A stretch of DNA of 44,401 bases from an uncultured Burkholderiales bacterium. GTDB taxonomy: Bacteria; Pseudomonadota; Gammaproteobacteria; Burkholderiales; Burkholderiaceae_C. Location of the stretch: NCBI GenBank assembly GCA_903910745.1, contig CAIWAO010000076.1:1-44401 (forward strand), in the 5' to 3' direction. Position numbers and translations under genes: made by a program. Positions 23,231 to 44,401 of this stretch are shown piece after piece. The notes under the pieces are model-generated. The model did no database searches. It was not told the DNA's origin and saw only the letters and a program-made list of their open reading frames with translations. Every line of letters starts with the position of its first letter. Positions within the stretch are counted from its first letter, which is position 1.

Positions 23231-23268
23231 TTTGTATCCTTTAGCTAATGCGGCAGATTTGCGCTTAA

Positions 23269-23739
23269 TTAGACGAGTTGACCGGACGCTCTTTGAACAG
23301 CACGAACTATGCGTTGGTGCGTTCCGCAGCGGCAAAGATTATTACTAAGTGCCTCTTTTATTTGAGCTTCAGTTGGTTTTTTATTCTTATTCAATAATGC
23401 CTTAGCCTGCATCACCATGCCGTTGATACAGTATCCACATTGAGCGGCTTGTTCGTCGATAAATGCTTGTTGCAGCGCATCTGGTTTGGCCGATGTACCT
23501 AAACCCTCCAAAGTAGTTACGTTCATACCCTTGGCGGCGGAGACCGGGTAGCTACAAGAGCGAACTGCCTCACCATTGATGTGAACTGTGCAACTGCCGC
23601 ACTGTCCAAGACCACATCCGAACCTGGGCCCTTTTAAATCAAGCTCATTGCGTAGTGCATATAAAAGCGGCATTTCTGGATCGTTGAATGGCAAAGATAC
23701 TTCTCGTCCATTAACCTTCAGCTTAATCGATTGCGTCAT
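23269..23739 (-). CDS. (2Fe-2S) subunit of the molybdenum hydroxylase
   Basis: Small electron-transfer subunit, 156 aa, cytoplasmically folded and probably co-exported with the Tat-tagged large subunit. Start ATG at 23739 (MTQSIKLKVNGREV) with GGGAG upstream; the longer frame begins at a TTG without support. Eight cluster cysteines: the plant-ferredoxin set C42, C47, C50, C62 (GCGLGQCGSC) and the helical set C101, C104, C136, C138 (CGYC and CRCGT). It precedes the large subunit by 38 bp. No cytochrome c subunit, which often accompanies such pairs, is present here. Confidence 0.93.
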   Translation of the reverse strand: MTQSIKLKVNGREVSLPFNDPEMPLLYALRNELDLKGPRFGCGLGQCGSCTVHINGEAVRSCSYPVSAAKGMNVTTLEGLGTSAKPDALQQAFIDEQAAQCGYCINGMVMQAKALLNKNKKPTEAQIKEALSNNLCRCGTHQRIVRAVQRASGQLV

Positions 23740-28582: not shown

Positions 28583-29464
28583 CTATATTGGAAGTTTTAG
28601 GACGGCTCTTATCTGAGCGCGCAGAGCTTTGAAGCTCTCCTCCAAAGAATGGGCACTGGTATCGAAAGTTAAGTTAGCTTTTGAGTAAAAAGGAGCGCGC
28701 CCTTCAAGGATCAACTTTAAATCCTCTAGTGCCTCCTCTGATCCAGCCATGGGTCTCATATCACCTTGAGCCACAACTCTGGATAAATGGTCTTCGGGCT
28801 TAGCCTGAAGCCATACGGTATAGCAGTGGGATAGCATCTCATTGAGAGTAGCTGTATCTGAGACCACACCGCCTGGCGTGGCGATGATCACTTCCGGGTA
28901 AATTTGAATCGCCTCCTCAAGAGCTCTGCGCTCATAGCGACGGTAGGCACTGATACCGTAGAGGTTATGAATTTCCGATACGCTACAGCCAGCAATCTTT
29001 TCAATCTCGCGGCTAAGTTCAATAAAAGCGTAGCCTAAGTCTGCTGCAAGGAGTTGTCCTAGGGTTGACTTGCCAGCGCCTCGCAAACCAATCAAAGCAA
29101 TTCTGTTGGTACGAGAAGACTCTAGAGTTGCCCCAAAAATTTCTGAGATCTGAACCCGAGCACGGTGCAATTCTGAATCACTTCGCTCAGCCAACATCTC
29201 TCGAATGAGCAACCATTCGGGTGAAGAGGTCGTAACGTCCCCAATCAATTCCGCCAATGAACAATTCAATGCCGAAGCAACCTGGTGCAATACAAGTATG
29301 GAGGCATTGCCCTCCCCGTATTCCAAATTAGCTAAATGTCGCTCCGAGATATCTGCAGATATAGCAACCGCTTTTCGGGTGAGCCCACGTCTAGCCCTTA
29401 AGGACCTAACTCGCTCACCCAAGGCAGTTAAAAATGGGTTCTTATCTAATTCCACCTCAGACAT
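28583..29464 (-). CDS. boxR: Transcriptional regulator BoxR (HTH + shikimate kinase-like domain)
   Basis: Regulator of the aerobic benzoyl-CoA pathway. In Azoarcus, BoxR and its paralogue BzdR repress their targets until benzoyl-CoA binds the kinase-like domain. 293 aa: an XRE-type helix-turn-helix at about 12-75 (LRARRGLTRKAVA then SERHLANLEYGEG), a linker, and a shikimate kinase-like domain from about 120 with the P-loop GLRGAGKST (126-134), ELSREIEK, the YRRYERRAL stretch and TPGGVVSD. Aromatic biosynthetic shikimate kinases lack the HTH, so this is a regulator. It diverges from boxD. Confidence 0.95.
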   Translation of the reverse strand: MSEVELDKNPFLTALGERVRSLRARRGLTRKAVAISADISERHLANLEYGEGNASILVLHQVASALNCSLAELIGDVTTSSPEWLLIREMLAERSDSELHRARVQISEIFGATLESSRTNRIALIGLRGAGKSTLGQLLAADLGYAFIELSREIEKIAGCSVSEIHNLYGISAYRRYERRALEEAIQIYPEVIIATPGGVVSDTATLNEMLSHCYTVWLQAKPEDHLSRVVAQGDMRPMAGSEEALEDLKLILEGRAPFYSKANLTFDTSAHSLEESFKALRAQIRAVLKLPI

Positions 29465-29707: not shown

Positions 29708-31288
29708 ATGAGCGAACTTTTAGCTAATTTTGTCTGCAATCAGTGGCAATCCGGAAATGGTCAAGCAAGTGCACTGTTTGATCCTGTATTGGGAACTGAG
29801 TTGGTCAGGGTGGATGCCACTGGCCTAGATTTAGCTGCATCCTTTGCTTATGCAAGAAACCAAGGCGGCGAAGCCCTGAGAGTACTCAACTACAAAGAGC
29901 GAGCAGCCCTTCTTGGTGTAGCGGTGAAGGTGCTGCAAGCTAATCGAGATAAATATTACGAAATATCCGCCGCCAATAGCGGAACCGTCAAAAACGATAC
30001 TGCTGTGGATGTAGACGGGGCTATCTATACCCTCAGCACTTATGCAAAGCTAGGGGACGGACTAGGGGAGAGGCAATTCTTGGTTGACGGTGAGATGTCT
30101 CGACTTGCAAAAGATCCACTCTTCCAATCCCAACACATTCTTACTCCCAATAGGGGCTTGGCTTTATTGATCAACGCCTTTAATTTTCCTGCTTGGGGAT
30201 TATGGGAAAAAGCAGCCCCAGCGCTTTTGTCAGGAGTTCCCATCATTGTGAAACCAGCCACTGCAACGGCTTGGCTAACCCATCAAATGATCAAAGACAT
30301 CGTGGACGCTGGAATATTCCCAGCAGGTGCTGTCTCGATCATTTGCGGAAGCTCTGCAGGTCTCATGGACCAACTCGAACCTTTTGATGTGGTCTCATTC
30401 ACCGGTTCGGCTGAAACAGCGCAGAAGATTCGCGCGCATCCCAGTGTCACTAAAAAATCTGTACGTGTGAACATTGAAGCCGACAGCGTCAATTCAGCCC
30501 TTTTGTTGCCCAGCGAAAGCGCGTCCAGCGAAGCCCTCGAATTACTGTGCAAAGAAGTCGTTAGAGAGATGACGGTCAAGTCAGGTCAAAAATGTACTGC
30601 TATTCGCAGGATATTCATCCCCCAGAGCTTATATGCTGTTGCAGCGCAAGCTATTTCAGCCCGTTTGAAAAAAATCACCATCGGCAATCCTCGCAACGAA
30701 ACAGTCAGCATGGGGGCTTTGGTTAACCGTGAACAGTTCAACACCGTAAAGAGTGGGGTCATGTATTTGAAAGAACAAACCGAGGTGCTTTATGAGACCG
30801 GTACAGACGAACTGATCGATGCTGATCCAGGTATAGCATGCTGCGTAGGACCCACTTTACTTGGCACACGCAGTGCAAATCAAAGTGATGCTTCAACTCG
30901 TGTTCATGAGATGGAAGTTTTTGGTCCAGTTGCTACTTTGATACCTTACCGAAATAACGATTTAAATCATGCCTTGAAGCTCATTCGTTTAGGACAAGGC
31001 TCCCTTGTGGTCTCAATATTCGGAACAGATCACAACGAGTTGGCACAAGTGGTGCCCGAGCTCACTGACAGTCACGGACGCGTGCATGTGGTGTCCCCTG
31101 ACATCGCGGCGCTCAATACAGGTCACGGCAACGTGATGCCTCAATCCCTTCACGGTGGGCCAGGACGGGCGGGCGGGGGTGAGGAGTTAGGTGGTCTTCG
31201 CGCACTGAACTTTTATCATCGCCGTGCGGCCGTTCAAGCAAGCACTTCCGTGCTTAGCCAACTTACCAAACTTGGCCAGCTTAGCTAA
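29708..31288 (+). CDS. boxD: 3,4-dehydroadipyl-CoA semialdehyde dehydrogenase BoxD
   Basis: NADP-dependent aldehyde dehydrogenase that oxidises the BoxC product to 3,4-dehydroadipyl-CoA, which then enters beta-oxidation-like steps. 526 aa. It resembles the dehydrogenase half of PaaZ but lacks the hydratase domain. Visible: NAFNFPAWGLWEKAAPALLS; VSFTGSAETA; VNIEADSVN with the general-base glutamate (E257); KSGQKCTAIRR with the catalytic C296; EMEVFGPVATLI. ATG at 29708 starts the divergent + strand catabolic operon. Confidence 0.95.
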   Translation: MSELLANFVCNQWQSGNGQASALFDPVLGTELVRVDATGLDLAASFAYARNQGGEALRVLNYKERAALLGVAVKVLQANRDKYYEISAANSGTVKNDTAVDVDGAIYTLSTYAKLGDGLGERQFLVDGEMSRLAKDPLFQSQHILTPNRGLALLINAFNFPAWGLWEKAAPALLSGVPIIVKPATATAWLTHQMIKDIVDAGIFPAGAVSIICGSSAGLMDQLEPFDVVSFTGSAETAQKIRAHPSVTKKSVRVNIEADSVNSALLLPSESASSEALELLCKEVVREMTVKSGQKCTAIRRIFIPQSLYAVAAQAISARLKKITIGNPRNETVSMGALVNREQFNTVKSGVMYLKEQTEVLYETGTDELIDADPGIACCVGPTLLGTRSANQSDASTRVHEMEVFGPVATLIPYRNNDLNHALKLIRLGQGSLVVSIFGTDHNELAQVVPELTDSHGRVHVVSPDIAALNTGHGNVMPQSLHGGPGRAGGGEELGGLRALNFYHRRAAVQASTSVLSQLTKLGQLS

Positions 31289-31368: not shown

Positions 31369-32988
31369 ATGCTCATGAATTCAGAATTACTCAACAACAT
31401 CCCCTCAACAACTTCAAGTGTGAGCCCTCCTCCTGAGAAATTTAATATTGCAGGTTTTTTACTTGAATGCAATGAACACCGCTCAAACCGACCTGCTTTT
31501 ATAGATGACACAGGGACTCTGAGCTACGCCGCCTTAAGCGAAAGGGCTCGTCGTCTTGGTGCAGGTCTGAGGAGTTTAGGTCTAAGGCGAGAGGAGCGAG
31601 TGTTACTATTAATGCAGGACTGCAACGATTGGCCCGTGAGTTTTTTAGGATCCATTTACGCAGGTTTGGTCCCCGTAGCTGTCAACACCCTATTAACGGC
31701 CGATGACTACGCATACATGCTTGAGCATTCAAGAGCGCAGGCCGTATTGGTCTCAGGAGCTTTATTGCCCGCCTTAACGGCTGCCATGACAAGATCAGAC
31801 CACGAGGTGGTCAAAGTTATTGTCTCTAACCCAGTTGCTCCACTTCACCCCTCTGAGGTGGAGTTTGAATCCTTCATTCAGGGCCAAGTAGCCTTACAAA
31901 AGCCTGCGCAGACCAAGGCCGATGACCCTGGTTTTTGGCTTTACTCTTCTGGCTCTACAGGACGCCCCAAGGGGACTGTTCACTCTCATGCCAATCCCTA
32001 CTGGACTGCGCAGTTGTACGGCAAGGGCGTTCTGGACCTTAAAGAGAGTGATGTGTGCTTCTCGGCTGCTAAATTATTTTTTGCCTATGGATTGGGCAAC
32101 GGCCTCACATTCCCAATGAGTGTGGGTGCTTGCACGGTTTTAATGTCTGAGCGGCCCACACCAGATGCAACTTTTAAAAGAATGACTGGGGGCGTTGGAA
32201 ACACCAAACCTACTGTATTTTTTGGAGCACCAACAGGTTTTGCAGGTATGTTGTCGCACCCTAATTTACCAGAGAAGAAAGAGGTGGCTTTGCGCCTTGT
32301 TTCGTCCGCTGGAGAAGCACTCCCCGCTGAGATAGGAGAACGGTTCACCCAGCATTTTGGGGTCAATATAGTTGACGGTATTGGATCAACGGAGATGCTT
32401 CATATTTTCTTATCCAACCGACCCAACGATGTTCGTTACGGTACCACTGGTTGGCCAGTGCCAGGGTACGAGATTGAACTTCGTGGAGATGATGGTTTAC
32501 CAGTACCCAATTCAGAGCCGGGGGATTTGTATATAAAGGGCCCCTCAGCAGCGCTTATGTACTGGGGAAACCGTGAGAAAAGCAGGGAAACATTTCAAGG
32601 GGGCTGGACCAAAAGTGGAGATAAGTATGTCAGAAACGAAGACGGTACCTACACCTACGGTGGCCGAACGGATGACATGCTCAAAGTCAGTGGAATTTAT
32701 GTGAGTCCCTTTGAAGTCGAGGCCACTCTTATTCAACACTCAAGCGTTCTAGAAGCTGCTGTCATCGGTATCAACGACAACAACGGACTAACCAAAACCA
32801 AGGCATTCGTTGTTCTTAAATCAGGATCAAGTGCGACCGAGGACGAATTAAAGGCCTTTGTCAAGGATAAACTTGCGCCCTATAAATATCCTAGACTCAT
32901 TGAGTTCGTTGCTGAGCTACCCAAAACCGCCACGGGTAAGATCCAGCGATTTAAGTTGCGCGCTCAGGAAAATAACAATACAAAATAA
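31369..32988 (+). CDS. bclA: Benzoate--CoA ligase
   Basis: Acyl-adenylate-forming ligase that activates benzoate to benzoyl-CoA, the entry step of the pathway. 539 aa. Motifs: P-loop LYSSGSTGRPKGTVHSH (around 191-207); FFAYGLGNGLTFPMSVGA, typical of benzoate-CoA ligases; DGIGSTEMLHIFLSNR; GRTDDMLKVSGIYVSPFEVE; the C-terminal lysine motif PKTATGKIQRFKLR. ATG at 31369 was used; a second ATG two codons on is equally possible. It follows boxD by 80 bp. Confidence 0.93.
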   Translation: MLMNSELLNNIPSTTSSVSPPPEKFNIAGFLLECNEHRSNRPAFIDDTGTLSYAALSERARRLGAGLRSLGLRREERVLLLMQDCNDWPVSFLGSIYAGLVPVAVNTLLTADDYAYMLEHSRAQAVLVSGALLPALTAAMTRSDHEVVKVIVSNPVAPLHPSEVEFESFIQGQVALQKPAQTKADDPGFWLYSSGSTGRPKGTVHSHANPYWTAQLYGKGVLDLKESDVCFSAAKLFFAYGLGNGLTFPMSVGACTVLMSERPTPDATFKRMTGGVGNTKPTVFFGAPTGFAGMLSHPNLPEKKEVALRLVSSAGEALPAEIGERFTQHFGVNIVDGIGSTEMLHIFLSNRPNDVRYGTTGWPVPGYEIELRGDDGLPVPNSEPGDLYIKGPSAALMYWGNREKSRETFQGGWTKSGDKYVRNEDGTYTYGGRTDDMLKVSGIYVSPFEVEATLIQHSSVLEAAVIGINDNNGLTKTKAFVVLKSGSSATEDELKAFVKDKLAPYKYPRLIEFVAELPKTATGKIQRFKLRAQENNNTK

Positions 32989-33835: not shown

Positions 33836-35005
33836 ATGCGCTATAAAAATATATTCAATCTAGGAATTGCAATTTCATTACTTACCTGCTCGCCTTTCAT
33901 TGGAGCTCAAAGCCAGGGTAAATTAAAAATTGGTTTTATGCTCCCAGCAACCGGTACCTATGCTGCGCTAGGCACAGCTATTGACAACGGTTTTCGTTTG
34001 TATGTGAATGAGCAGGGTGGCAAAATCGGGGGGCGTGAGATTGAATACGTCCGTGTAGACGATGAGAGCGATCCCTCAAAGGCCGCAGACAACGTCAACA
34101 AACTGATCAAGCGCGATAACGTTGATGTGATCGTTGGCTCTGTGCACAGCGGGGTTGCAATGGCGATGGCCAAGGCAGCCAAAGAGTCAGGTACTTTACT
34201 CATCGTACCCAACGCAGGTGCAGTTGCAGTGACTGGGCCCATGTGTGCACCCAATATCTTCAGATCCAGTTTCTCCAACTGGCAACCAGGCTTTGCTATG
34301 GGAGAGGTCGCGGCTAAAAAAGGGCATAAAAAAATTGTGACCATCACTTGGAAATATGCAGCGGGTGAGGAGACCATGAAGGGCTTTAAAGATGGGTTTG
34401 AGAAAAGTGGTGGATCTGTCATCAAAGACCTTACACTTCCCTTTCCCAACGTTGAATTCCAAGCCCTTTTAACAGAGATCGCATCTCTAAAGCCAGATGC
34501 AGTATTTACTTTTTTTGCAGGAGCTGGAGCAGCTAAATTTGTTAAAGACTACGCCGCAGCAGGCCTAAAGAAGAGCATCCCTTTGTACGGTTCGGGTTTT
34601 CTAACAGACGGAGTCTTAGACGCTGAGGGCGTCGATGCAGAGGGAATTCTCACAACTCTTCATTACGCTGATAACTTGAACAACAAGCGTGATCAAAGCT
34701 TTCGACTGGCCTATGCCAAAACTTTTAAATTACAGCCTGACGTTTATGCAGTCCAAGGCTATGACGCAGCTCAAATGCTTGCCATCGGGTTAAGTGCGAC
34801 ACAAGGGGATGCTAAAAACATCACCACCTTTGCCCAAGCACTCATGAAATCAAAAATTGATAGCCCTAGAGGAACATTTACTTTGTCCAGTAGCCACAAC
34901 CCTGTACAAGATATTTATCTTCGCAAAGTAATTGGCAAAGAAAACGTAAATGAAGGAGTCGCATCCAAAGCTTTAGCTGATCCTGGGCTAGGTTGCAAGA
35001 TGTAA
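33836..35005 (+). CDS. ABC transporter substrate-binding protein (aromatic acid / LivK type)
   Basis: Periplasmic binding protein that would deliver ligand to the permease encoded next. 389 aa with an N-terminal signal peptide (hydrophobic NLGIAISLLTCSPFIGA, cleavage likely after GAQ or just before). The mature part starts KLKIGFMLPATGTYAALG, typical of the type I branched-chain amino acid fold. ATG at 33836 has AGGA 7 nt upstream. Location inside the box operon suggests benzoate or a related aromatic acid rather than leucine (inference). A structured 106-bp gap separates it from the permease gene. Confidence 0.88.
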   Translation: MRYKNIFNLGIAISLLTCSPFIGAQSQGKLKIGFMLPATGTYAALGTAIDNGFRLYVNEQGGKIGGREIEYVRVDDESDPSKAADNVNKLIKRDNVDVIVGSVHSGVAMAMAKAAKESGTLLIVPNAGAVAVTGPMCAPNIFRSSFSNWQPGFAMGEVAAKKGHKKIVTITWKYAAGEETMKGFKDGFEKSGGSVIKDLTLPFPNVEFQALLTEIASLKPDAVFTFFAGAGAAKFVKDYAAAGLKKSIPLYGSGFLTDGVLDAEGVDAEGILTTLHYADNLNNKRDQSFRLAYAKTFKLQPDVYAVQGYDAAQMLAIGLSATQGDAKNITTFAQALMKSKIDSPRGTFTLSSSHNPVQDIYLRKVIGKENVNEGVASKALADPGLGCKM

Positions 35006-35023
35006 GAATTGGAATGTTGAATA

Positions 35024-35109
35024 AGTAGCTTGGGGACTGCGAAAATCAAAAGATCGGGCTACTCATTACATATCAACTAACTTACTTTAAAAGACTCAAG
35101 AAGTAGCCC
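35024..35109 (+). promoter_or_regulatory. Competing RNA hairpins between binding protein and permease genes
   Basis: GGGCTACT (35056-35063) can pair with AGTAGC upstream (35024-35029, 6 bp) or perfectly with AGTAGCCC downstream (35102-35109, 8 bp). The two pairings exclude each other. The downstream one would end 2 nt before the permease ATG and cover its ribosome-binding region. This could lower permease translation relative to the binding protein, or protect the upstream mRNA (inference). Confidence 0.4.
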
Positions 35110-35111
35110 TT

Positions 35112-35990
35112 ATGGATTTCGCAATTTTTTTAATCCAGTGCCTTAATGCATTGCAATACGGGCTGCTTCTCTTTTTAATCGCATCTGGCTTGACATTGAT
35201 ATTTGGCATCATGGGTGTAATCAATCTCGCCCACGGTAGTTTTTATATGATTGGCGCCTACTTGGCCTATGCGCTAGCCCCAGCAGTGGCTTGGAGTATT
35301 GGGGGGGGATTTTTTACGACTCTGGCCATCGGATTGGTCATATCTGTAATTCTTGGATACCTACTGGAATGGGCCTTCTTTAGTTTTTTATATGAACGTG
35401 AACATCTACAACAAGTGCTGATGACTTACGGTCTAATTCTGGTATTTGAGGAACTGAGAAGCATTGTTGTTGGAGACGATGTACATTCAGTTGAAATTCC
35501 AAAGTTTTTAGATATTGCACTTCCCTTGAACGAGGTCTTGACTTATCCACTATACCGACTTTTCATGAGCGGGGTTTGTTTGATACTTGCGGTTGGGATG
35601 TGGTTGGTCTTCAAACGCACTCGTCTTGGAATGATGATACGAGCCGGGACTAGCAACCGAGAGATGACTCAAAGTTTAGGTATTGATATTACTTTGCTTT
35701 ACCGCGTCGTCTTTGCCTGCGGAGTTGCGTTGGCTGCTTTTGCTGGAATGATTGCTGCGCCCGCAACAAGCGTCTATCCGGGGATGGGTAGCTCAGTGTT
35801 GATCATCTGTTTTGTAGTGGTTGTGATTGGTGGTATCGGCTCCATCAAGGGGGCCATGCTTGCATCCCTTTTGGTCGGCCTAGTAGACACATTTGGCAAA
35901 TTACTATTACCTCAAATATCAGGCATGTTGGTCTACGTTTTGATGGCTTTGATTTTGCTTTGGCGTCCCAATGGCTTATTTAAAGATTGA
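35112..35990 (+). CDS. ABC transporter permease, LivH type
   Basis: Inner-membrane permease of the importer. 292 aa with about eight hydrophobic segments, starting FLIQCLNALQYGLLLFLIAS. The LivH landmark GIMGVINLAHGSFYMIGAYLAY and the C-terminal VVVIGGIGSIKGAMLASLLVGL loop that contacts the ATPase are present. It should pair with the LivM-type permease 28 bp downstream. Confidence 0.92.
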   Translation: MDFAIFLIQCLNALQYGLLLFLIASGLTLIFGIMGVINLAHGSFYMIGAYLAYALAPAVAWSIGGGFFTTLAIGLVISVILGYLLEWAFFSFLYEREHLQQVLMTYGLILVFEELRSIVVGDDVHSVEIPKFLDIALPLNEVLTYPLYRLFMSGVCLILAVGMWLVFKRTRLGMMIRAGTSNREMTQSLGIDITLLYRVVFACGVALAAFAGMIAAPATSVYPGMGSSVLIICFVVVVIGGIGSIKGAMLASLLVGLVDTFGKLLLPQISGMLVYVLMALILLWRPNGLFKD

Positions 35991-36018
35991 AAAATAAGCA
36001 CTAAACAAAAACAGCCAC

Positions 36019-37035
36019 ATGCATATTCAAAATCGCTACTCATTTATTTCTTTAGTTATCCTGTTTGGTGCACTCGCACTGTGGCCTTTTGCTGCAAGTT
36101 CATACGGCATTGATTTAGTGGCCAAGATGATGATCTACGCTTTGCTGGCGCTTAGTTTAGAGTTGTTGGTTGGTAGCACGGGACTTGTATGTTTTGGTCA
36201 AGCCGCTTTTTTTGGAGTCGGAGCCTACGCGGCAGTGCTTCTCGCACCTGCAGACGGTAGCTCTGCAACTTTGTTACTTGGACTTATGGAGTCCATACTG
36301 TTGGCCGGACTTTGCGCCCTCCTCATTGGTAGTCTCTCACTAAAAACGAGTGGCGTTTATTTCATCATGGTTACTTTAGCGTTCGCTCAAATGACCTACT
36401 TCATCATTCACGATACTCCTGTTGGGGGCGGCTCAGATGGAATATTTTTATATGTAAAGCCAACTCTTGGCGGATTGGATTTAGACAAACCCATGCATCT
36501 TTACGGATTTATTTGGTTAAGTTTGTTAATGGGTTATGCTTTTTTATCTCAACTCGTCAAATCGCCCTTTGGACGTGCGTTATCCGGAATTCGAGTCAAC
36601 GAGCAACGTATGAAGGCAAGTGGCTTCTCCACCTATCCTTATAAGCTTGGCGCTTTTACGGTCTCGGGCATGATCGCTGGTTGGGCGGGTTATTTATTTG
36701 CGATCAAAGACGGCTTTGTTAATCCAGAATTATTGAGTTGGCACCTTAGTGGCGCAGTTTTAGTCATGATCATTTTGGGGGGTCTAGGGCGCTTAGGAGG
36801 CGCACTTATAGGAGCGTTTGCATTTGCAGTACTTCAAGAAATATTTCAATCTGAGGCTTTGTTTGGTAGCTTTGCCAAGCACTGGCAACTCAGTCTAGGG
36901 CTTGCCATTATTAGCTGCGTGGCCTTTATGCCAAACGGCTTAATCGCCCTACCCTCTCAGTTTGTCAGAAGACTCACTGGGAGCATTGGTCCCGAGGGAC
37001 TAACCCATACCCCATCCAACAAATCGCAATCATGA
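36019..37035 (+). CDS. ABC transporter permease, LivM type
   Basis: Second permease subunit, 338 aa, polytopic. Landmarks: LLVGSTGLVCFGQAAFFGVGAYAA; LKTSGVYFIMVTLAFAQM; SPFGRALSGIRVNEQRMKASGF, the EAA-like cytoplasmic loop; ILGGLGRLGGALIGAFAF. Its stop overlaps the next ATPase gene by 4 bp (ATGA), so the two are translationally coupled. Confidence 0.92.
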   Translation: MHIQNRYSFISLVILFGALALWPFAASSYGIDLVAKMMIYALLALSLELLVGSTGLVCFGQAAFFGVGAYAAVLLAPADGSSATLLLGLMESILLAGLCALLIGSLSLKTSGVYFIMVTLAFAQMTYFIIHDTPVGGGSDGIFLYVKPTLGGLDLDKPMHLYGFIWLSLLMGYAFLSQLVKSPFGRALSGIRVNEQRMKASGFSTYPYKLGAFTVSGMIAGWAGYLFAIKDGFVNPELLSWHLSGAVLVMIILGGLGRLGGALIGAFAFAVLQEIFQSEALFGSFAKHWQLSLGLAIISCVAFMPNGLIALPSQFVRRLTGSIGPEGLTHTPSNKSQS

Positions 37036-37784
37036 AAAACAATGCACTCATGAGCTGCAAAAATCTAACCCGTCAATGGGGAGGACTTACAGCGGTTAAG
37101 GATGTCTCCCTAGAGTTGGAGCGTGGTTCAATTCACGCTGTTATTGGAACCAATGGTGCTGGTAAATCAACACTTATCAATTTGTTATCCGGAGAAGTTG
37201 AACCCTCATCAGGAGAGGTCGAGCTCTTGGGCAGTGACGTCACAAATTGGCCCCAGTATAAGAGAGCCAGAATTGGATTGGGAAGGAGTTATCAAAGAAA
37301 CACGATCTATCCTACTTTTACAGTTTTAGAAAACTGTAGGCTCTGTGCGCAGGCTAAATCCCGAAGAGCTTGGTCATTTTGGATTCAAGCGCAAAAGGAC
37401 CAACAAACACTAGACGTTGCAAAAGAGGTGGCAAGGCTCGTAGGTTTAGATGAATTTTTAGATCGCCCTGCTGGATTTTTAAGTCACGGGCAAAAGCGTC
37501 AGCTTGAAATAGCGATGTGTTTGGCTACAAGTCCTCAAGTTTTGCTTCTTGACGAACCCTTGGCTGGTATGGGAGCAGAGGAGACAGAGCGAATGCTGGG
37601 TCTGCTTCTCAAGCTCAAACGTGATCATGCAATTTTATTAGTTGAGCATGATATGGATGCAGTGTTTCGAATTTCTGACCAAATTACAGTCATGGTCAAC
37701 GGCACTGTGATCGCCTCAGGAGTTCCAGATTTTGTACGCAACCACCCCGGGGTGCGAAGTGCTTACTTGGGCGAACACGGATGA
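37032..37784 (+). CDS. ABC transporter ATP-binding protein, LivG type
   Basis: ATPase subunit, 250 aa. Walker A GTNGAGKST; signature motif in the variant form LSHGQKRQLEIAM (instead of LSGGQ), which is common in LivG proteins; Walker B VLLLDEPLAGM; H-loop LLVEHDMDAVF. The LivG-type C-terminus is shortened, ending VRSAYLGEHG. It overlaps both neighbours by 4 bp. Confidence 0.93.
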   Translation: MKNNALMSCKNLTRQWGGLTAVKDVSLELERGSIHAVIGTNGAGKSTLINLLSGEVEPSSGEVELLGSDVTNWPQYKRARIGLGRSYQRNTIYPTFTVLENCRLCAQAKSRRAWSFWIQAQKDQQTLDVAKEVARLVGLDEFLDRPAGFLSHGQKRQLEIAMCLATSPQVLLLDEPLAGMGAEETERMLGLLLKLKRDHAILLVEHDMDAVFRISDQITVMVNGTVIASGVPDFVRNHPGVRSAYLGEHG

Positions 37785-38512
37785 AAGCTAATAACGAAAT
37801 CATTTTGCACGCACAAGACTTACACGCTTGGTACGACAGTAGTCATATTTTGCACGGCATCAACCTTGACATCCGCAAGGGCGAAACTGTGGGACTTCTT
37901 GGTCGAAACGGGATGGGTAAAAGTACCCTTATCAGGACACTCCTAGGTCATGTGGGCAACCAAGTTGGAAAGCGTGAGGGACACATTACCTTACTTGGAC
38001 ACGACATATCAAACGCTAAACCCTATCAAGTTGCAAGACTTGGGGTGGCTTATGTACCGGAGGGGAGAGGGGTGTTCTCTAACCTGAGTGTTCGCGAGAA
38101 CCTGGTAATGGCGGCAAGAAGAGGCAAAGACGAGCGTTTTGACTGGCCCCTGGAGCGGGTGCTGCTTACATTCCCCAGACTGGCGGAGAGGTTAAATAAT
38201 CTAGGTAACCAACTCTCAGGCGGCGAGCAACAAATGTTATCCATTGGACGTGCCCTTATGACGCACCCAGAATTGATCATCTTGGACGAGGCCACAGAGG
38301 GGTTGGCACCACTCATCGTCGATGAGGTCTGGAGAGTTATAGATGAGATCAAAAAAAGCGGTCTTGCAGTGTTGATCGTTGACAGAGACTGGCACCGCGT
38401 TCTTGGACGCAGCGACAGAGCTCTTGTATTACAAAAAGGTCTCGTCGTTATGCAGGGCGAGTCCAAAGAGTTACTTAGTGACCCTCAACTGCATAACTTT
38501 TTGGGCGTATAG
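37781..38512 (+). CDS. ABC transporter ATP-binding protein, LivF type
   Basis: Second ATPase of the importer, 243 aa. Walker A GRNGMGKST; signature LSGGEQQMLSIGRAL; Walker B with a slight variation, LIILDEATEGLAP (LivF usually has DEPSEGL). The region after Walker B reads VLIVDRDWHRVL, replacing the usual VEQN of LivF. Last gene of the benzoate + strand operon, 4-bp overlap with livG, and convergent with the LysR gene 34 bp away. Confidence 0.92.
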   Translation: MKANNEIILHAQDLHAWYDSSHILHGINLDIRKGETVGLLGRNGMGKSTLIRTLLGHVGNQVGKREGHITLLGHDISNAKPYQVARLGVAYVPEGRGVFSNLSVRENLVMAARRGKDERFDWPLERVLLTFPRLAERLNNLGNQLSGGEQQMLSIGRALMTHPELIILDEATEGLAPLIVDEVWRVIDEIKKSGLAVLIVDRDWHRVLGRSDRALVLQKGLVVMQGESKELLSDPQLHNFLGV

Positions 38513-38546: not shown

Positions 38547-39440
38547 TTAATTCGATGAATCAGTGTGAAGAATTTGATCAATGAGGTCCGATATCGTTGA
38601 ATGCAGAACCGCCTGCGAACGGTTTTTCATAACCACCACTGCATATTTCGCGCTCGCGTTCAAAGGCGGCGAAACTTTTAAAACCTCCAACTCTCTCCCC
38701 GCCGCTCTCGCGGCTAAAACAACTGTATCACTGGTTTTTGCAACATGAATTAGATCGTTTATCTCATCACTGATCATTCGAATCATTTCTTTTGGATGAG
38801 CCGTGTCGCCGTACCTGGAGATTAAAAGACGCGCAAGCTCATCGCTGAGGGGTGTTGATGCAATGGGGTATTGAATTAATTGCTCGTAACTGACTTTTCT
38901 TAGCTTCATGAGTGGGTGACTTTTCCTGCATAAAAATTCCCCAGCGAATTCATATGTATGTTCTATATGCAGTGCGGAATCAGGGGCCAAAGAGCGCAAA
39001 TCAACAACCAAAGCGTCAACCTCTCTTTCCTTTAACAAACCTACCAAAGTCTGCGTGTTAGCACGAAAAATCTCAACTCTCACCTTAGGAAATTGATTTG
39101 CAACTTTGGTCAGCAATGCAGCACTGAGTAATGCGCCCGGACCCGAACTCAGTCCTAATTTGTACACACCACTTGTGATGGGTTGCTTTGTCTTGCCCGA
39201 TCCTTTTAATTCATCAAGTGACTCCAAAATCTCCTTCGAGCGCTTAAGTGAACTCGTACCAAAAGAGGTGAGCTCAATTTTTCTACCAATCCTGTCAAAA
39301 AGTATTTTTCCCAACTCATCCTCAAGTGACTTTATGCTTCTGCTTAATGCGGGCTGAGTTATGAATAATGCCTTTGACGCCTTGGCAAAACTACCCAACT
39401 GAGCCAAAACGATGAAATGCCTTATTTGTAGAAAAGTCAT
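38547..39440 (-). CDS. LysR-family transcriptional regulator
   Basis: 297 aa from ATG 39440 (MTFLQIRHFIVLAQLGSF); a TTG two codons upstream also fits. N-terminal winged HTH at about 1-60 (FAKASKALFITQPALSRSIKSLEDELGKILFDR), then a ligand-binding domain (YKLGLSSGPGALLSAALL onward). It diverges from the Bug receptor gene, so the expected target is that receptor-amidohydrolase operon. The ligand is unknown; a substrate of the amidohydrolase, such as an N-acyl amino acid, would fit (inference). Confidence 0.93.
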   Translation of the reverse strand: MTFLQIRHFIVLAQLGSFAKASKALFITQPALSRSIKSLEDELGKILFDRIGRKIELTSFGTSSLKRSKEILESLDELKGSGKTKQPITSGVYKLGLSSGPGALLSAALLTKVANQFPKVRVEIFRANTQTLVGLLKEREVDALVVDLRSLAPDSALHIEHTYEFAGEFLCRKSHPLMKLRKVSYEQLIQYPIASTPLSDELARLLISRYGDTAHPKEMIRMISDEINDLIHVAKTSDTVVLAARAAGRELEVLKVSPPLNASAKYAVVVMKNRSQAVLHSTISDLIDQILHTDSSN

Positions 39441-39465
39441 AGCCAAATCAATCCATCACAAAAAA

Positions 39466-39555: not shown

Positions 39556-40542
39556 ATGAAGTTTTTACTCAAATTAAGATATTGCTTGTTGTTTTCAATG
39601 CTCCTTGGAGTAAATTGTTTTGGTCAAAACTACCCAAGCAAGCCAGTAACTTTATTGGTGCCTTACCCGGCCGGTGGACTCTCAGACGTCATTGCTCGAA
39701 CACTGAACACGACCTTATCAAAGAATATGGGTCAAACGGTACTTGTTGATAATTTAGGCGGCGCTAGTGGCTCAATTGCAGCACAAAAGGTGCTTAACTC
39801 TCCAGCTGATGGACAAATTATTTTCCAAGGGTCTCCAAACGAATTGATCCTTGCACCTTTGGCAATTTCTGCAGTTAAGCTCAAGAGTGAGGACTTCAGG
39901 CTCGTACAAATGATAGCTACTGCACAAATTGCATTCCTTGCTCGCAAAGATCTACCCGTCAACAACGTCGATGAATTTTTAGAGTACGCGCGCAAGGAGG
40001 CAAAAGCGGGTAGACCCATTACCTATGCAAGTGTTGGTCCGGGTTCTTTTTATCACTTGTTGGGCGAGCATTTATCAAAAATAACAAATATTCCAATGAC
40101 TCACATTCCCTACAAGGGCGCTGCGCCAGCAAACCAAGATCTGTTAGGCGGACAAGTTGATATATTTCTAGCCCCTTTTGGTAAAGCTTACGAGGAGCTT
40201 CAAAGACAAGGTAAATTAAAAGTACTTGCCATGCTCAACAGTGATCGCATTGAATCCCTAAAGGAGTATCCAGCTATTGGCGAGAGCAAATCTTTAAAGA
40301 ACTTCACTTTCAATATTTGGACAGGTTATTTTGTAAGAAAAGAAACTCCTGAGCCCATTGTTGAAACGATACACAAAGCAGTGACAGAATCTTTATCAGA
40401 CGCATCTGTTAAGGCAGGACTTGAGGCCAACAGCCAGTTGGTTTCAAAACCTATGACTCTGCAAGCTGCAAGTAAAGCTTATGCAGACGGTATTGCCCAG
40501 TTTAGAGCAATTGCCAAATCAATCGACCTACAGCCTCAATGA
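39556..40542 (+). CDS. Bug-family tripartite tricarboxylate transporter substrate-binding protein
   Basis: Periplasmic receptor of the Bug (TctC) family, 328 aa. Start ATG 39556 is fixed by AGGAGG five bases upstream; an earlier ATG at 39517 lies inside the predicted -10. Signal peptide MKFLLKLRYCLLFSMLLG with cleavage near NCFGQ. The mature start is the family hallmark YPSKPVTLLVPYPAGGLSDVIAR. ITYASVGPGSFYHLLGEHL and HIPYKGAAPANQDLLGGQVD are also typical. No tctA/tctB membrane genes are nearby, so it is an orphan receptor, as is common in Burkholderiales. The next gene begins 1 bp after its stop. Confidence 0.93.
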   Translation: MKFLLKLRYCLLFSMLLGVNCFGQNYPSKPVTLLVPYPAGGLSDVIARTLNTTLSKNMGQTVLVDNLGGASGSIAAQKVLNSPADGQIIFQGSPNELILAPLAISAVKLKSEDFRLVQMIATAQIAFLARKDLPVNNVDEFLEYARKEAKAGRPITYASVGPGSFYHLLGEHLSKITNIPMTHIPYKGAAPANQDLLGGQVDIFLAPFGKAYEELQRQGKLKVLAMLNSDRIESLKEYPAIGESKSLKNFTFNIWTGYFVRKETPEPIVETIHKAVTESLSDASVKAGLEANSQLVSKPMTLQAASKAYADGIAQFRAIAKSIDLQPQ

Positions 40543-40543
40543 A

Positions 40544-41743
40544 ATGAGTTACATGGGCGACGCTATGGTTGAGCGATTGGATGAATTCATTCAACTCAGA
40601 CATGACATACACAAATTCCCTGAGCTTGCATTTGATGAACACCGAACCTCTGAACTGGTTGCTGGTAAGCTCTTAAACTGGGGCTACAAAGTCCACCGCG
40701 GACTGGGGAGGACAGGTGTAGTAGCTACTCTCAAACGTGGCAACTCGACCAAGACTGTTGGTATTCGAGCAGACATGGACGCTTTACCAATTCAAGAGGA
40801 GACGAAGCTTAATTGGCAAAGCGAAAGACCTGGTGTGATGCACGGTTGTGGTCATGATGGACATACAGCAACATTACTGGCTGCGGCAAAAATAATTGCA
40901 GAAACAGTTGAGTTTGACGGGACTTTGAATTTGATATTTCAGCCCGCAGAGGAAGGCGGTGGAGGTGCATTAAAGATGATGGAGGATGGTCTATTTGACC
41001 TATTTCCATGTGACAGTATATTTGCTATGCACAACATGCCTGGTGTCCCGGTTGGACATTTTGTTTTCCGCCACGGTTCAATGATGGCGTCAAGTGATTA
41101 TGCAACCATTAAATTACTAGGCAAAGGGGGGCACGGCGCAATGCCCCACCTTGCTCAAGACCCAGTCGTCGCTGCGGCGTCAATCATTATGGCATTGCAA
41201 ACTGTTGTGGCAAGAAATGTAGATCCTCAGCAAACTGCAGTGGTTACAGTCGGTGCGGTGCATTCGGGGCAGGCTAACAATGTAATCCCTGCCTCTGCGA
41301 CATTGGAGTTAAGCATAAGAGCCTTAGATCCCAAGGTCCGTCAATTACTTGAAGTACGAATAAAATCTTTGATCACTGCTCAAGCGCAGAGTTACGGTCT
41401 CAGTGTAGAAATAGATTGGAGAGCGGGCTATACAGTGCTTGTGAATAACGCCTTGGAAACAGACTTAGCCACAGGCGTTGCACTAAGCCTATACGGCAAC
41501 GAGCGGGTGCATTTGCAGGGTCCTGCGCTCACTGCGAGCGAAGATTTCTCCTTCATGTTAGAGAAAATTCCTGGTTGCTATTTTTTAATTGGCAATACAG
41601 ACGTAGATTCAAACGGAGTCGTTTGTACTGATTCAACCAGTTCTTGCATGGTTCACAACCCAGGATATGACTTTAATGATAAGATCATCTCCATTGGGTC
41701 CCAATATTGGGCACAACTGGTAGGAGAATATTTAAAAAAATAA
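40544..41743 (+). CDS. M20 amidohydrolase, hippurate hydrolase-like
   Basis: Zinc metallohydrolase of the M20D group that cleaves N-acyl amino acids such as hippurate or N-acetyl amino acids. 399 aa. Start ATG 40544 directly follows the receptor stop (TGAAATG), pointing to coupling; ATGs at 40553 and 40565 are alternatives. Metal motifs: RADMDALPI; MHGCGHDGHTA at 99-109 with C102 and H104; FQPAEEGGGG with the catalytic glutamate at 136-137; GGHGAMPH; SGQANNVIP; a C-terminal FMLEKIPGCYFLIGN. No signal peptide, so cytoplasmic. Context (benzoate pathway on one side, glycine riboswitch on the other) favours a benzoyl-glycine substrate, but the family is broad. Confidence 0.88.
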   Translation: MSYMGDAMVERLDEFIQLRHDIHKFPELAFDEHRTSELVAGKLLNWGYKVHRGLGRTGVVATLKRGNSTKTVGIRADMDALPIQEETKLNWQSERPGVMHGCGHDGHTATLLAAAKIIAETVEFDGTLNLIFQPAEEGGGGALKMMEDGLFDLFPCDSIFAMHNMPGVPVGHFVFRHGSMMASSDYATIKLLGKGGHGAMPHLAQDPVVAAASIIMALQTVVARNVDPQQTAVVTVGAVHSGQANNVIPASATLELSIRALDPKVRQLLEVRIKSLITAQAQSYGLSVEIDWRAGYTVLVNNALETDLATGVALSLYGNERVHLQGPALTASEDFSFMLEKIPGCYFLIGNTDVDSNGVVCTDSTSSCMVHNPGYDFNDKIISIGSQYWAQLVGEYLKK

Positions 41744-41760
41744 GCCACAATTATTCATTT

Positions 41761-41838
41761 GATATCGGGAGAGACTATCCCCGTGTAGCGCCGAAGGAGC
41801 AACCGCCCCGGAAACTCTCAGGCTAAAGGACCGATATC
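41761..41838 (+). promoter_or_regulatory. Glycine riboswitch, aptamer 1
   Basis: The P1 helix is perfect: GATATCGG (41761-41768) pairs with CCGATATC (41831-41838). Inside are the conserved glycine-aptamer elements GGGAGAG, GCCGAAGGAGCAA (41790-41802) and AACTCTCAGG (41813-41822). It begins 17 bp after the amidohydrolase stop and is followed at once by a second aptamer, the tandem form. Confidence 0.93.
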
Positions 41839-41846
41839 AAAAATCA

Positions 41847-41939
41847 TTCTGAAGAGTAGTTGATGAAATCGTCCATCAACTCACCGCAGGAGCAATCAAC
41901 AAAACATTTTGTTGAGAATCTCTCAGGTCCAAAACAGAA
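41847..41939 (+). promoter_or_regulatory. Glycine riboswitch, aptamer 2 and expression platform
   Basis: P1 is TTCTG (41847-41851) with CAGAA (41935-41939). Conserved elements are GAAGAGT, CACCGCAGGAGCAA (41883 onward) and ATCTCTCAGG (41918-41927). The leader after it holds a GCGC..AGCA / TGCT..GCGC hairpin (about 41945-41970) and a CAAAAC / GTTTTG hairpin (41970-41990) just before the oxidoreductase start. No T-rich terminator follows, so control may be on translation. Glycine riboswitches are usually ON switches for glycine breakdown genes. Confidence 0.9.
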
Positions 41940-42002
41940 GGGGCGCGCAAGCACCATTTCGTTGCTGCGCAAAACCCTTTTGACGTTTTGAAAGATCTGA
42001 GC

Positions 42003-43229
42003 ATGAAATCAATTGCAATCATTGGTGGCGGAATCACCGGAGTTACGACTGCTTACGCCTTAGCCAAACGCGGCTTTGAGGTCACATTGTTTGAGCGTCA
42101 TCGCTACAGTGCGATGGAAACTTCCTTTGCCAATGGCGGCCAACTCTCGGCCTCTAACGCTGAGGTTTGGAATCACTGGTCCAACATTGTGAAGGGCATC
42201 AAATGGATGCTCAAAGGCGACGCCCCTTTACTCATAAACCCCAAACCGAGTTGGCACAAATTGTCTTGGTTTGCAGAGTTCATAGCGGCCATGCCAGATT
42301 ACGAGACCAATACCGTAGATACGACCAAACTTGCTATTGCATCGCGTAACTATTTGTTTGATTGGGCAACTCAAGAGAACATTGACTTTGATTTAAAGAA
42401 AGAGGGAATCTTACATATTTACCGCGACAAGGCTGGATTCGATCATGCAGCAAAGGTGTCCAAACTTCTTGCCCAAGGGGGCTTATCTAGACAGGCAGTT
42501 ACGCCAAAAGAGATGCTTGCCATTGAACCTACTTTGGCAGGCTCTTATTACGGAGGTTTTTTTACAGAGAGCGATTCAACTGGAGACATCCATAAATTCA
42601 CGACAGGCTTAGCCCTAGCTGCACAGCGACTAGGGGTTAAGATTTTGTACGATCAAAACGTTAAGTCCCTAAGAAACATCAACGGCGTTTTTAGCGCCCA
42701 TGTGTATTCTCAAAATGCGACCCCTACTCAGCATAACTTTGATGGTGTTGTCATTTGTGCAGGTGTTGAGAGCAGAGGCTTTGCACAGCAACTCGGTGAC
42801 AGAGTCAATATCTATCCAGTAAAAGGATATTCGATCACGGTTAATTTAAAGGACACACAAAGCCAAGAAGGTGCCCCAAATGTGAGTCTGTTGGATGATG
42901 AAACAAAACTAGTGACGAGTCGTTTGGGGCTTGATCGCTTTAGAGTTGCGGGGACTGCAGAGTTCAATGGCTATAACCGAGACATCCGAGCAGACCGGAT
43001 CAATCCATTGATTAGTTGGGTAAAGGAGTGTTTTCCCAGGATAAATACCAGCTCAGTCGTTCCTTGGGCAGGACTGCGACCCATGTTGCCAAACATGATG
43101 CCTCGAGTTGGGCAAGGCGTGGCAAACAACGTCTTTTACAACACGGGACACGGACACTTGGGCTGGACCTTATCGGCGGTCACAGCCAATATGATTGCTG
43201 AAAAAATTCAGCAATCAATGAAACCTTGA
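42003..43229 (+). CDS. FAD-dependent D-amino acid dehydrogenase / glycine oxidase-like (DadA family)
   Basis: Flavoprotein that oxidatively deaminates a small amino acid. 408 aa from ATG 42003; an in-frame TTG at 41988 falls inside the leader hairpin and is disfavoured. FAD site IAIIGGGITGVTTAYALAKRG at the N-terminus and ETSFANGGQLSASNAEVW, typical of DadA; the C-terminal NTGHGHLGWTLSA FAD contact is present. DadA proper acts on D-alanine. Being directly under a glycine riboswitch suggests glycine, giving glyoxylate and ammonia, as the physiological substrate here (inference). Confidence 0.88.
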   Translation: MKSIAIIGGGITGVTTAYALAKRGFEVTLFERHRYSAMETSFANGGQLSASNAEVWNHWSNIVKGIKWMLKGDAPLLINPKPSWHKLSWFAEFIAAMPDYETNTVDTTKLAIASRNYLFDWATQENIDFDLKKEGILHIYRDKAGFDHAAKVSKLLAQGGLSRQAVTPKEMLAIEPTLAGSYYGGFFTESDSTGDIHKFTTGLALAAQRLGVKILYDQNVKSLRNINGVFSAHVYSQNATPTQHNFDGVVICAGVESRGFAQQLGDRVNIYPVKGYSITVNLKDTQSQEGAPNVSLLDDETKLVTSRLGLDRFRVAGTAEFNGYNRDIRADRINPLISWVKECFPRINTSSVVPWAGLRPMLPNMMPRVGQGVANNVFYNTGHGHLGWTLSAVTANMIAEKIQQSMKP

Positions 43230-43291: not shown

Positions 43292-44401
43292 TTAGTCGCC
43301 AAACATCTTTTGTTTGAGTTCGCGGCGTTGTTGCGCTTCTAAGGACAAGGTAGCTGTGGGCCTAGCAAGTAAACGCCCCACACCGATTGATTCACCTGTT
43401 TCATCACAGTAACCATAATCACCTGCATCAATCCGGGTGATGGATTGCTCAATCTTCTTGAGCAACTTTCTCTCACGGTCTCTGGTTCTGAGCTCTAAAG
43501 CGTGCTCTTCCTCAATGGTTGCTCGGTCTGCTGGATCAGGTACCACGATAGTGTCTTCTCTGAGGTGCTCGGTCGTGCCTTCAGCATTAGCCAAAATATC
43601 GTTTTTAAGTTGCACGAGTTTGATCCTGAAAAAGGCCAACTGAGTATCATTCATGTACTCCGAATCAGGCATAGAGAGCACTTCTTCATCGCTCAAATCT
43701 TGTAAAGGCTTTGACTTCCAATTGTTAGCCAGTTTAGCGTCCTTTTTGTGAACGACCGGCACAACGTTTGGTAACTGTGGTGTGGACATAGGGGTATAAC
43801 TTGCCTTTGCGGTTGTGGATGCCACCATTTGTCCAGGGGGGGGTGGCATGAGAGATATCGCTTTAGCAGCGCGAGGGGATTTTTTCTGAGTATCTTCAAG
43901 AGCCTTAGCGGCAAGCTTGGCAGCTTTTGCTAAAGCTTTTGCTTCTTCTTTGGCAATTTTGGCCAAAGCTTTGTCGATTTTGGGCTTCACCTCTTTAACA
44001 GGCTTAGCAGGTTTGATAGGTTTTACCGCTTTAACAGCTTTAACTACCTTTGGCGTTTTGGCTGGGGCGGAAGACTTTTTGGGAATCGGTTTAGATTTAG
44101 GAGATACAGCTTTCTTAGCGACGACTTTGGATGTTGGTTTTTGAGATGCTTTATGAGTTGCTTTAGTAGCAGTTTTAGCAACTGGTTTAGATGCTGGTTT
44201 TACTGCCTTTTTGGTTGACTTAGCTAATGGCTTAACTACTGCTTTTTTGGCAACTACTTTTTTAGCAACTACTTTTTTAGCAACTGACTTCTTTGCTACA
44301 ACTTTTTTAGCAACTACTTTTTTAGCAACTGACTTCTTTGCTACAACTTTTTTAGCAACTACTTTTTTAGCAACTGACTTCTTTGCTACAACTTTTTTAG
44401 C
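43292..44401 (-). CDS. dksA: RNA polymerase-binding protein DksA with histone H1-like N-terminal extension (5' end outside window)
   Basis: Stringent-response cofactor that enters the RNA polymerase secondary channel with ppGpp. The C-terminal 145 residues are DksA: SMPDSEYMNDTQLAFFRIKL, the coiled-coil tip DPADRA with both key aspartates, ITRIDAGDYGYCDETGES and RLLARPTATLS. Only one of the four zinc-finger cysteines remains (YGYCDET), a form known in betaproteobacteria. The frame stays open from GTG 43990 to the window edge with no stop, adding at least 137 residues. These consist of Ala-Lys-Val-Pro repeats (AKKVVAKKSVAKK-like, then KPAKPV-like). A start at 43990 is possible but would ignore this continuous lysine-rich frame. 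The real start is beyond the window. Confidence 0.88.
   Translation of the reverse strand, partial: AKKVVAKKSVAKKVVAKKVVAKKSVAKKVVAKKVVAKKSVAKKVVAKKVVAKKAVVKPLAKSTKKAVKPASKPVAKTATKATHKASQKPTSKVVAKKAVSPKSKPIPKKSSAPAKTPKVVKAVKAVKPIKPAKPVKEVKPKIDKALAKIAKEEAKALAKAAKLAAKALEDTQKKSPRAAKAISLMPPPPGQMVASTTAKASYTPMSTPQLPNVVPVVHKKDAKLANNWKSKPLQDLSDEEVLSMPDSEYMNDTQLAFFRIKLVQLKNDILANAEGTTEHLREDTIVVPDPADRATIEEEHALELRTRDRERKLLKKIEQSITRIDAGDYGYCDETGESIGVGRLLARPTATLSLEAQQRRELKQKMFGD
44241..44401 (-). repeat. 15/45-bp tandem repeat coding for AKKVV/AKKSV pentads
   Basis: A 45-bp unit built from three 15-bp subunits repeats at exact spacing: the marker GACTTCTTTG (+ strand) recurs at 44286, 44331 and 44376. Each 15 bp encodes a five-residue pentad with two lysines, of the form KKAVV or KKAVS. 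It is part of the DksA extension and runs off the right end, so the total copy number is unknown. Confidence 0.92.

Follow-up and report, generated by a model that had tools for sequence, protein, structure and literature searches.

Organization of the locus

We have analysed a 44,401-nt stretch of DNA from an uncultured Burkholderiales bacterium, referred to here as the window, which makes up the whole of contig C76 in a genome of 2.87 Mb (168 contigs, 98.8% complete). From left to right, the window carries a dcw cell-division cluster, a box benzoate cluster, the glycine-riboswitch module that is the subject of this report, and a DksA gene. The module consists of a LysR regulator, a Bug receptor, an M20D amidohydrolase (AMI), a tandem glycine riboswitch and a DadA-type flavin adenine dinucleotide (FAD) oxidoreductase. 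This order, proposed earlier from the letters of the window (the sequence-only reading), was borne out by matches to Pfam, NCBIfam and RF00504. On balance we favor the view that the module is an aroylglycine (hippurate-type) catabolic operon, in which the hydrolase would release the inducer of its neighbor gene.

The LysR gene (38547-39446, minus strand; PF00126, HTH_1, and PF03466, LysR_substrate) is divergent from the Bug gene, and a divergent LysR gene is also present in many relatives. The Bug/TctC periplasmic receptor, a predicted import component, is encoded at 39556-40542 on the plus strand (PF03401, 144.3 bits) and has homologues of 79-83% identity in loci L057, L081, L116 and L218. 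AMI, our candidate aroylglycine hydrolase, follows at 40544-41743 on the plus strand; we prefer the ATG at 40544, 1 base past the Bug stop codon, as its start because alignments with homologues begin there. AMI can be placed in TIGR01891, since its score of 352.7 bits exceeds the curated cut-off of 153.75 and the active-site residues are kept. Residues C102, H104, E136, E137, H163 and H371, which we take to be the metal and catalytic residues, did not vary across the 14 sequences aligned and were also matched in alignments to 1xmb and 1ysj.

The description of AMI as of "hippurate-hydrolase type" held at the level of M20D (TIGR01891) but no further, as its NCBIfam and Pfam matches do not single out hippuricases; judged by these matches, the phrase is a subfamily-level statement. 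HipO is an example of an M20D hippurate hydrolase. AMI resembles such enzymes in its TIGR01891 subfamily and its conserved active-site residues, and differs from them in its association with import, with a riboswitch and with ring degradation; its activity on hippurate is predicted.

The glycine riboswitch and its expression platform

Both tandem aptamers exceeded the RF00504 gathering score of 32 bits: aptamer 1 (41756-41843, plus strand) scored 69.8 bits, and aptamer 2 (41844-41943, plus strand) 35.5 bits, or 46.6 bits in a search of the genome. No glycine riboswitch other than the one before DadA was detected in that search. The first stem begins 17 bases past the AMI stop codon, in agreement with the 17-bp spacing given by the sequence-only reading. 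The expression platform (41944-42002, plus strand) contains a hairpin and then, before the ATG, CCCUUUUGACGUUUUGAAAGAUCUGAGC, which is complementary to positions 41922-41943. This last segment (CUCAGGUCCAAAACAGAAGGGG), the 3' strand of aptamer 2, can pair with CCCUUUUGACGUUUUGAAAGAUCUGAGC and doubles as a strand opposing the ribosome-binding site (RBS). The minimum-free-energy fold of the window's aptamer 2 plus platform forms the anti-RBS hairpin, at -54 kcal/mol and with a z-score of -4.59.

We examined the same pairing in relatives, where DadA genes were of two types: PRK12409-like (type A) or PRK00711-like (type B), the latter ~36-38% identical to the former. Among 52 type-A leaders (L140 excluded), pairing of each RBS region with its own partner averaged -19.7 kcal/mol, as compared with -17.2 kcal/mol with the partners of others, and 0 of 10000 permutations were as good; relatedness of the sequences inflates such permutation tests. 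The signal was weak for the 28 type-B leaders, in which own-partner pairing was matched by 322 of 10000 permutations. The mutually exclusive pairing characteristic of an RF00504 platform was thus found in the window's fold and in the type-A leaders. This conserved pairing between aptamer 2 and the RBS region suggests an ON switch, in which glycine would turn translation on. Translational control is described as usual for glycine riboswitches in Pseudomonadota in the main text of PMC12452182.

Recurrence of the module and its transcription

We compared the locus with its counterparts in a main sample of 150 genomes from the family and an enlarged sample of 399 genomes, covering 27 of 32 close AMI loci, 80 further named loci and 40 stretches from the enlarged sample. 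Close AMI are those of at least 60% identity; the weaker AMI matches listed in the 150 genomes had identities of 51-57% and 42-49%. All proximity counts for AMI, boxB, DadA, gentisate-dioxygenase-family and PaaA genes, in both samples, refer to the best ~150 matches listed for each.

The module was found to recur across Comamonadaceae and relatives. Of 32 close AMI, 13 had a DadA-family gene within 6 kb, start to start, as compared with 0 of the 118 weaker matches (Fisher p 2e-10), and the order AMI, riboswitch core, DadA was seen in 12 of the 27 close AMI loci examined, as well as in further loci. These 12 include G100, whose DadA gene was absent from the matches listed and was found by sequence. 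Cores were located by a regular expression that gives false positives: one in L210/L250 was unconfirmed by Rfam, and that in L111 may be another. Within the window's own genus, the full module is present in G350 (AMI 71% identical) and G287 (70%), and G080, G211 and G408 have just weaker AMI among the matches listed. The parts around this core vary. The Bug gene stands before or after AMI, depending on the locus; a TRAP transporter serves as the putative importer in L064, L164 and L174; an MFS transporter, TIGR00883-like and under the cut-off where tested, is present in L108, L127, L230 and L237; and a porin is added in L066 and L243. We conclude that this operon type is genuine and conserved, and that it exists in several versions built from exchanged parts. 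In L206 (G061:C51, 1886-2023), a stretch of 46 codons that follows MFS and AMI genes matches DadA at 74% and probably represents a decayed module.

For the locus to act as one unit, transcription would have to read through from AMI into the riboswitch. We considered instead that the LysR-Bug-AMI unit ends before the riboswitch, which would then have a promoter of its own. Loci with riboswitch and DadA in which AMI is absent are common, which counts against our interpretation; the pair can clearly stand alone, since many loci carry it in this form. In L120 and L186, AMI and the riboswitch-DadA pair are convergent and do not form one transcript, so that their association does not always need read-through. 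Also in keeping with separate units is a weak promoter-like match inside AMI, at 41652-41680, one of 8 such matches found where 6.3 were expected. Against these points, the gap of 17 bases between AMI and the riboswitch holds no terminator-like match on the plus strand, and many loci have AMI, Bug, TRAP, MFS or porin genes directly upstream of the riboswitch in the same orientation. We regard two separate units as unlikely, and infer read-through from the hydrolase gene.

The DadA-type enzyme and the proposed fate of glycine

The DadA-type FAD oxidoreductase, a proposed glycine dehydrogenase, is encoded at 42003-43229 on the plus strand, its start being taken as the ATG at 42003. It belongs to NF009074 (PRK12409, D-amino acid dehydrogenase), with 716.4 bits against a cut-off of 494, and matches ThiO (TIGR02352) more weakly, at 142.7 bits, below the cut-off of 250.8; the solved proteins most closely related to it are glycine oxidases (E 3.2e-14). 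The gene differs from the known DadA and ThiO systems in its leader: a CTCAGG aptamer core was present within 340 bases upstream in 43 of 47 type-A DadA rows, two loci being entered twice. We infer glycine as the substrate. The glycine cleavage P protein gene, gcvP, was not detected in the window's genome and malate synthase is present; therefore an enzyme converting glycine to glyoxylate would make sense there. In other genomes gcvP, mostly with gcvT in view, is no more than 6 kb from AMI (L093, L113/L185, L164, L180, L186, L192, L195 and L249). L195 belongs to a cultivated relative that has the module, Hydrogenophaga aromaticivorans. Since no DadA was detected near the AMI-gcvP pair of L113/L185, the link of AMI to glycine does not depend on DadA by itself.

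A different assignment of both enzymes can be envisaged, in which AMI acts on other amino-acid amides (of the indole-3-acetic acid (IAA)-amino acid type, or N-acetyl amino acids) and DadA on D-amino acids. In that case the riboswitch would serve to relieve glycine stress, and its position next to AMI would be a side effect of operon shuffling. The solved proteins nearest to AMI, a homologue of IAA-amino acid hydrolase and YxeP, would fit this assignment, and DadA's own family is annotated as D-amino acid dehydrogenase, a further point against our interpretation. Such an assignment would not, however, account for the proximity of AMI to DadA described above, for AMI near gcvP where DadA was not detected nearby, or for the glycine oxidases among solved DadA relatives, and we consider it improbable. 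The link of AMI to an N-acylglycine appears to us well supported.

We also observed that L073, L076 and L077 carry gcvT and gcvP with tandem riboswitch cores of their own, directly followed by riboswitch and DadA, and thus hold two glycine-controlled units in a row.

Ring-degradation genes beside the amidohydrolase

To the left of the module, the window encodes boxA (23944-25224, minus strand; TIGR03224, 721.6 bits), boxB (25256-26683, minus; TIGR03225, 888.5 bits), boxC (26736-28403, minus; TIGR03222, 935.2 bits), a boxR-type regulator (28583-29464, minus; NF006015, 437.5 bits), 3,4-dehydroadipyl-CoA semialdehyde dehydrogenase (29708-31288, plus; NF008868, 866.2 bits) and benzoate-CoA ligase (31369-32988, plus; TIGR02262, 792.5 bits), each over its curated cut-off, as in known box clusters; the window's cluster differs from these in being joined by a module for aroylglycine uptake and hydrolysis. 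A putative benzoate importer, consisting of a substrate-binding protein (SBP) and four ABC-importer genes (33836-38512, plus strand; open reading frames, with the substrate proposed), lies between the two. Its SBP matches urea and branched-chain SBP families below their cut-offs, and the four ABC-importer genes share 72-84% identity with their counterparts next to the G150 module. The sequence-only reading had described a complete benzoate island here. The box genes and ligase are as described, but the lower pathway (hydratase, 3-hydroxyacyl-CoA dehydrogenase and thiolase) had no match within the window.

In the 150 genomes, a boxB or gentisate-dioxygenase-family gene lay within 20 kb of 4 of 32 close AMI and 0 of 118 weaker ones (p 0.0018), or 3 of 31 as against 0 of 118 when the window was left out (p 0.008). 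In the newly sampled genomes, boxB lay within 20 kb of 3 of 65 AMI of at least 58% identity, where ~0.4 would be expected by chance placement (P 0.008); this cut was chosen after G190 (58%) was known to be adjacent, and with a cut of 60% the count was 2 of 58 (P 0.05). The boxB matches take in a class of ~60-65% identity, and the 97 gentisate-family places entered (above ~200 bits) include many under the family cut-off, those of G044 and G058 among them. The statistics modestly favor a link between AMI and ring degradation. Pure chance as the source of the box adjacency is not favored, although the newly sampled numbers are small.

The anatomy of individual loci is more telling. In G158, an importer, ligase, boxR, boxC, boxB, boxA, enoyl-CoA hydratase, 3-hydroxyacyl-CoA dehydrogenase and thiolase lie beside the module, which runs DadA-riboswitch-AMI-MFS, convergent to the box operon and 90 bases beyond the thiolase. 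In G190, LysR-Bug-AMI-riboswitch-DadA is followed ~330 bases on by convergent thiolase, dehydrogenase, hydratase and box genes. In G286, type-B DadA-riboswitch-AMI-Bug-LysR is 2.4 kb from box genes. G400 has an importer, ligase and both the upper and lower box pathway, then 3-hydroxybenzoate 6-monooxygenase, a gentisate-dioxygenase-type gene and a fumarylacetoacetate hydrolase (FAH)-type hydrolase, followed by Bug and then LysR-Bug-AMI; neither DadA nor a confirmed riboswitch was found at this AMI locus. Genes for 3-hydroxybenzoate 6-monooxygenase (over the cut-off in both), FAH and a gentisate-dioxygenase-family protein (over the cut-off in G009 only) adjoin AMI-riboswitch-DadA in G058 and G009. 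Similar 3-hydroxybenzoate/gentisate genes adjoin LysR-Bug-AMI in G204, as do gentisate-type, FAH and maleylacetoacetate-isomerase-type genes in G044 and G174. G150 repeats the window's order of ABC importer, zinc alcohol dehydrogenase and module, with its box genes on another contig; hydratase- and thiolase-type genes lie 3' of DadA, and we claim no lower pathway there because the thiolase is just 38% like the box thiolase. In L227 and L230 a thiolase is the only such neighbor, which is weak evidence.

We placed 138 AMI proteins on a quick tree with SH-aLRT support only, one row (L116) being labelled as box-adjacent by hand on account of its importer. The ring-adjacent label, carried by 13 of the 138 rows, required 12 changes, of which at least 8 are forced by well-supported branches. 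Since the rows were partly picked for adjacency, and L210-L213 were included because boxB is near, the tree indicates several lineages, and 13 of 138 is not a frequency. Its clustering did not exceed that of shuffled labels, 150 of 500 of which scored as low; this is the result to be expected from adjacency that arose repeatedly or by chance.

Ring genes also co-occur with AMI at the genome level. A boxB match was present in 24 of 28 AMI genomes as compared with 57 of 122 lacking AMI (p 2.4e-4), in 13 of 13 glycine-linked AMI genomes as compared with 68 of 137 others, and in 18 of 20 glycine-linked named genomes searched, a count that leaves out L179. The set of 13 omits G012, where DadA is near in another arrangement, and includes G130, where DadA is adjacent and no riboswitch was found. 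With genome size in the model the boxB-AMI association had z 3.3, and with PaaA and gentisate added, boxB had z 2.0 and gentisate z 1.95, phylogeny being uncontrolled in both. Co-occurrence of PaaA with AMI was weak (22 of 28 as against 73 of 122; p 0.08). Phenylacetylglycine as the main substrate was rejected: PaaA was not detected in the window's genome, and 0 of the 35 PaaA places entered, from matches in 95 genomes, lay within 20 kb of AMI.

A number of observations weigh against a fixed tie between the module and benzoate. In the newly sampled genomes, the contrast of AMI above the cut with weaker AMI was not significant (3 of 65 and 0 of 34 listed at 58%, p 0.55; 2 of 58 and 1 of 41 at 60%, p 1.0). 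The association of the gentisate family with AMI (24 of 28 as against 59 of 122, p 2.8e-4) equals that of boxB in strength. No boxB was detected in G153 (L122) or G167 (L186), nor among the matches listed for G350, which has the full module; in G287 the box genes are ~294 kb from it, and in nearly every other AMI genome of both samples they lie elsewhere. Ring genes were absent from the flanks covered in 48 of 57 glycine-linked AMI rows, and 4 of the 13 ring-adjacent rows (L103, L136, L210 and L233) have neither DadA nor riboswitch nearby. A large clade of 38 AMI rows, mostly of Limnohabitans type, shows neither link in the flanks covered, so that AMI at ~61% identity may have another job. The sequence-only reading would have been refuted by a gene order that was not conserved together with a box cluster located elsewhere in relatives; the order proved to be conserved and recurrent, and its box adjacency is local.

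These observations bear on the possibility that the operon serves N-acylglycines in general, or glycine-containing peptides or amides, with non-aromatic acyl groups and incidental ring adjacency. The glycine link is stronger and wider than the ring link, and the ring-free flanks, G350 and the non-significant contrast just described all agree with such a general function. It is harder to reconcile with the benzoyl-CoA or gentisate operons that adjoin AMI in several unrelated lineages, with the 4 of 32 against 0 of 118 in the main sample, and with the co-occurrence of boxB and gentisate genes with AMI; we consider it rather unlikely. The acyl part is probably aromatic, and aroyl specificity is fairly supported. 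Because the box genes lie elsewhere in most cases, 3-hydroxybenzoate/gentisate operons replace them beside AMI in some genomes, and G350 has no detected boxB, "aroylglycine" fits better than hippurate alone. For the genome studied here, we lean slightly towards benzoylglycine as the substrate.

Two further arrangements were noted. G064 (contig C23; L091/L202/L203) carries boxR-Bug-type-B DadA-riboswitch-boxC, a second kind of box-glycine link, in a genome that has no close AMI among the matches listed, the best being 45%. In G137, which also has no close AMI, boxB is ~13 kb from riboswitch-DadA with metG between; this may be chance and was not counted.

Other genes of the window

The segment 32858-33805 gave no NCBIfam match at 1e-40, and our label for it, "abhyd", is a guess. 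A 794-aa frame beside the box cluster (20951-23335) resembles, in its C-terminal part, xanthine/aldehyde dehydrogenase large-subunit models below their cut-offs. The DksA gene (43292-44401; TIGR02420 over the cut-off) continues past the contig end and encodes a long Lys/Ala-rich N-terminal extension, with weak matches to histone H1-like HC2 models below their cut-offs.

Relation to known systems

The window's riboswitch resembles the gcvT/gcvTHP glycine riboswitch (RF00504) in its tandem aptamers and in glycine catabolism as the putative target, and differs in its position, with an amidohydrolase gene on its 5' side and a DadA-type oxidoreductase gene on its 3' side. The targets of glycine riboswitches named in PMC12452182, PMC3766115 and PMC2211319 are gcv genes, transporters, serine genes, glyA, malate synthase and COG4198; dadA or D-amino acid (dehydrogenase) was not found as a term in the main texts searched, and the AMI-riboswitch-DadA arrangement is not among the targets named in the main texts of the latter two. 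The supplementary gene lists of PMC3766115 and PMC2211319 may already include riboswitch-DadA alone. In the main text of PMC12452182, the amidohydrolase is amhX, under SAM/T-box control, and the glycine oxidase is thiO, under TPP control. Open-licence full texts yielded no description of an aroylglycine operon with a glycine riboswitch, and no pairing of that riboswitch with hippurate, D-amino acid dehydrogenase or benzoate, in line with the sequence-only reading, which knew of no description. The parts are known and the combination is apparently new.

Proposed mechanism and significance

In the mechanism we propose, LysR would control the Bug receptor and the M20D hydrolase, which together would import benzoylglycine, or a closely related compound, and hydrolyze it. 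The benzoate released would enter the adjacent box pathway, and the glycine would bind the tandem riboswitch inside the same transcript. When glycine is absent, the RBS would be masked by the 3' strand of aptamer 2; when glycine is bound, aptamer 2 would keep that strand, the RBS would be freed and DadA translated. The flavoenzyme would then oxidize glycine to glyoxylate, a compound that malate synthase can use. One further point speaks against this scheme: homology of the riboswitch does not guarantee a response at physiological glycine levels. Overall, the interpretation given by the sequence-only reading is supported: as far as sequence can indicate, the leader has the architecture of a translational ON switch, and ring operons adjoin AMI in several unrelated loci.

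For the family as a whole, we find it somewhat easier to believe than not that aroylglycine operons are widespread and have been repeatedly assembled, with transporter, DadA type and ring partner exchanged like cassettes, and with the riboswitch acting within the operon as a sensor for feed-forward control: the hydrolase encoded upstream would free the ligand that turns on translation of a downstream glycine dehydrogenase. If so, this would be a clear case of a riboswitch inside a catabolic operon that senses the product of an enzyme encoded just upstream, while the other product of hydrolysis is handled by a neighboring pathway. The recurrence also provides independent evidence on the substrate class of poorly characterized M20D enzymes and DadA-like proteins. 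Among the end-products of dietary aromatics in urine, hippurate and hydroxyhippurates are major ones, and they find their way into water and soil. For their breakdown, the operon described here supplies named candidate genes as well as a biosensor that can be tested.

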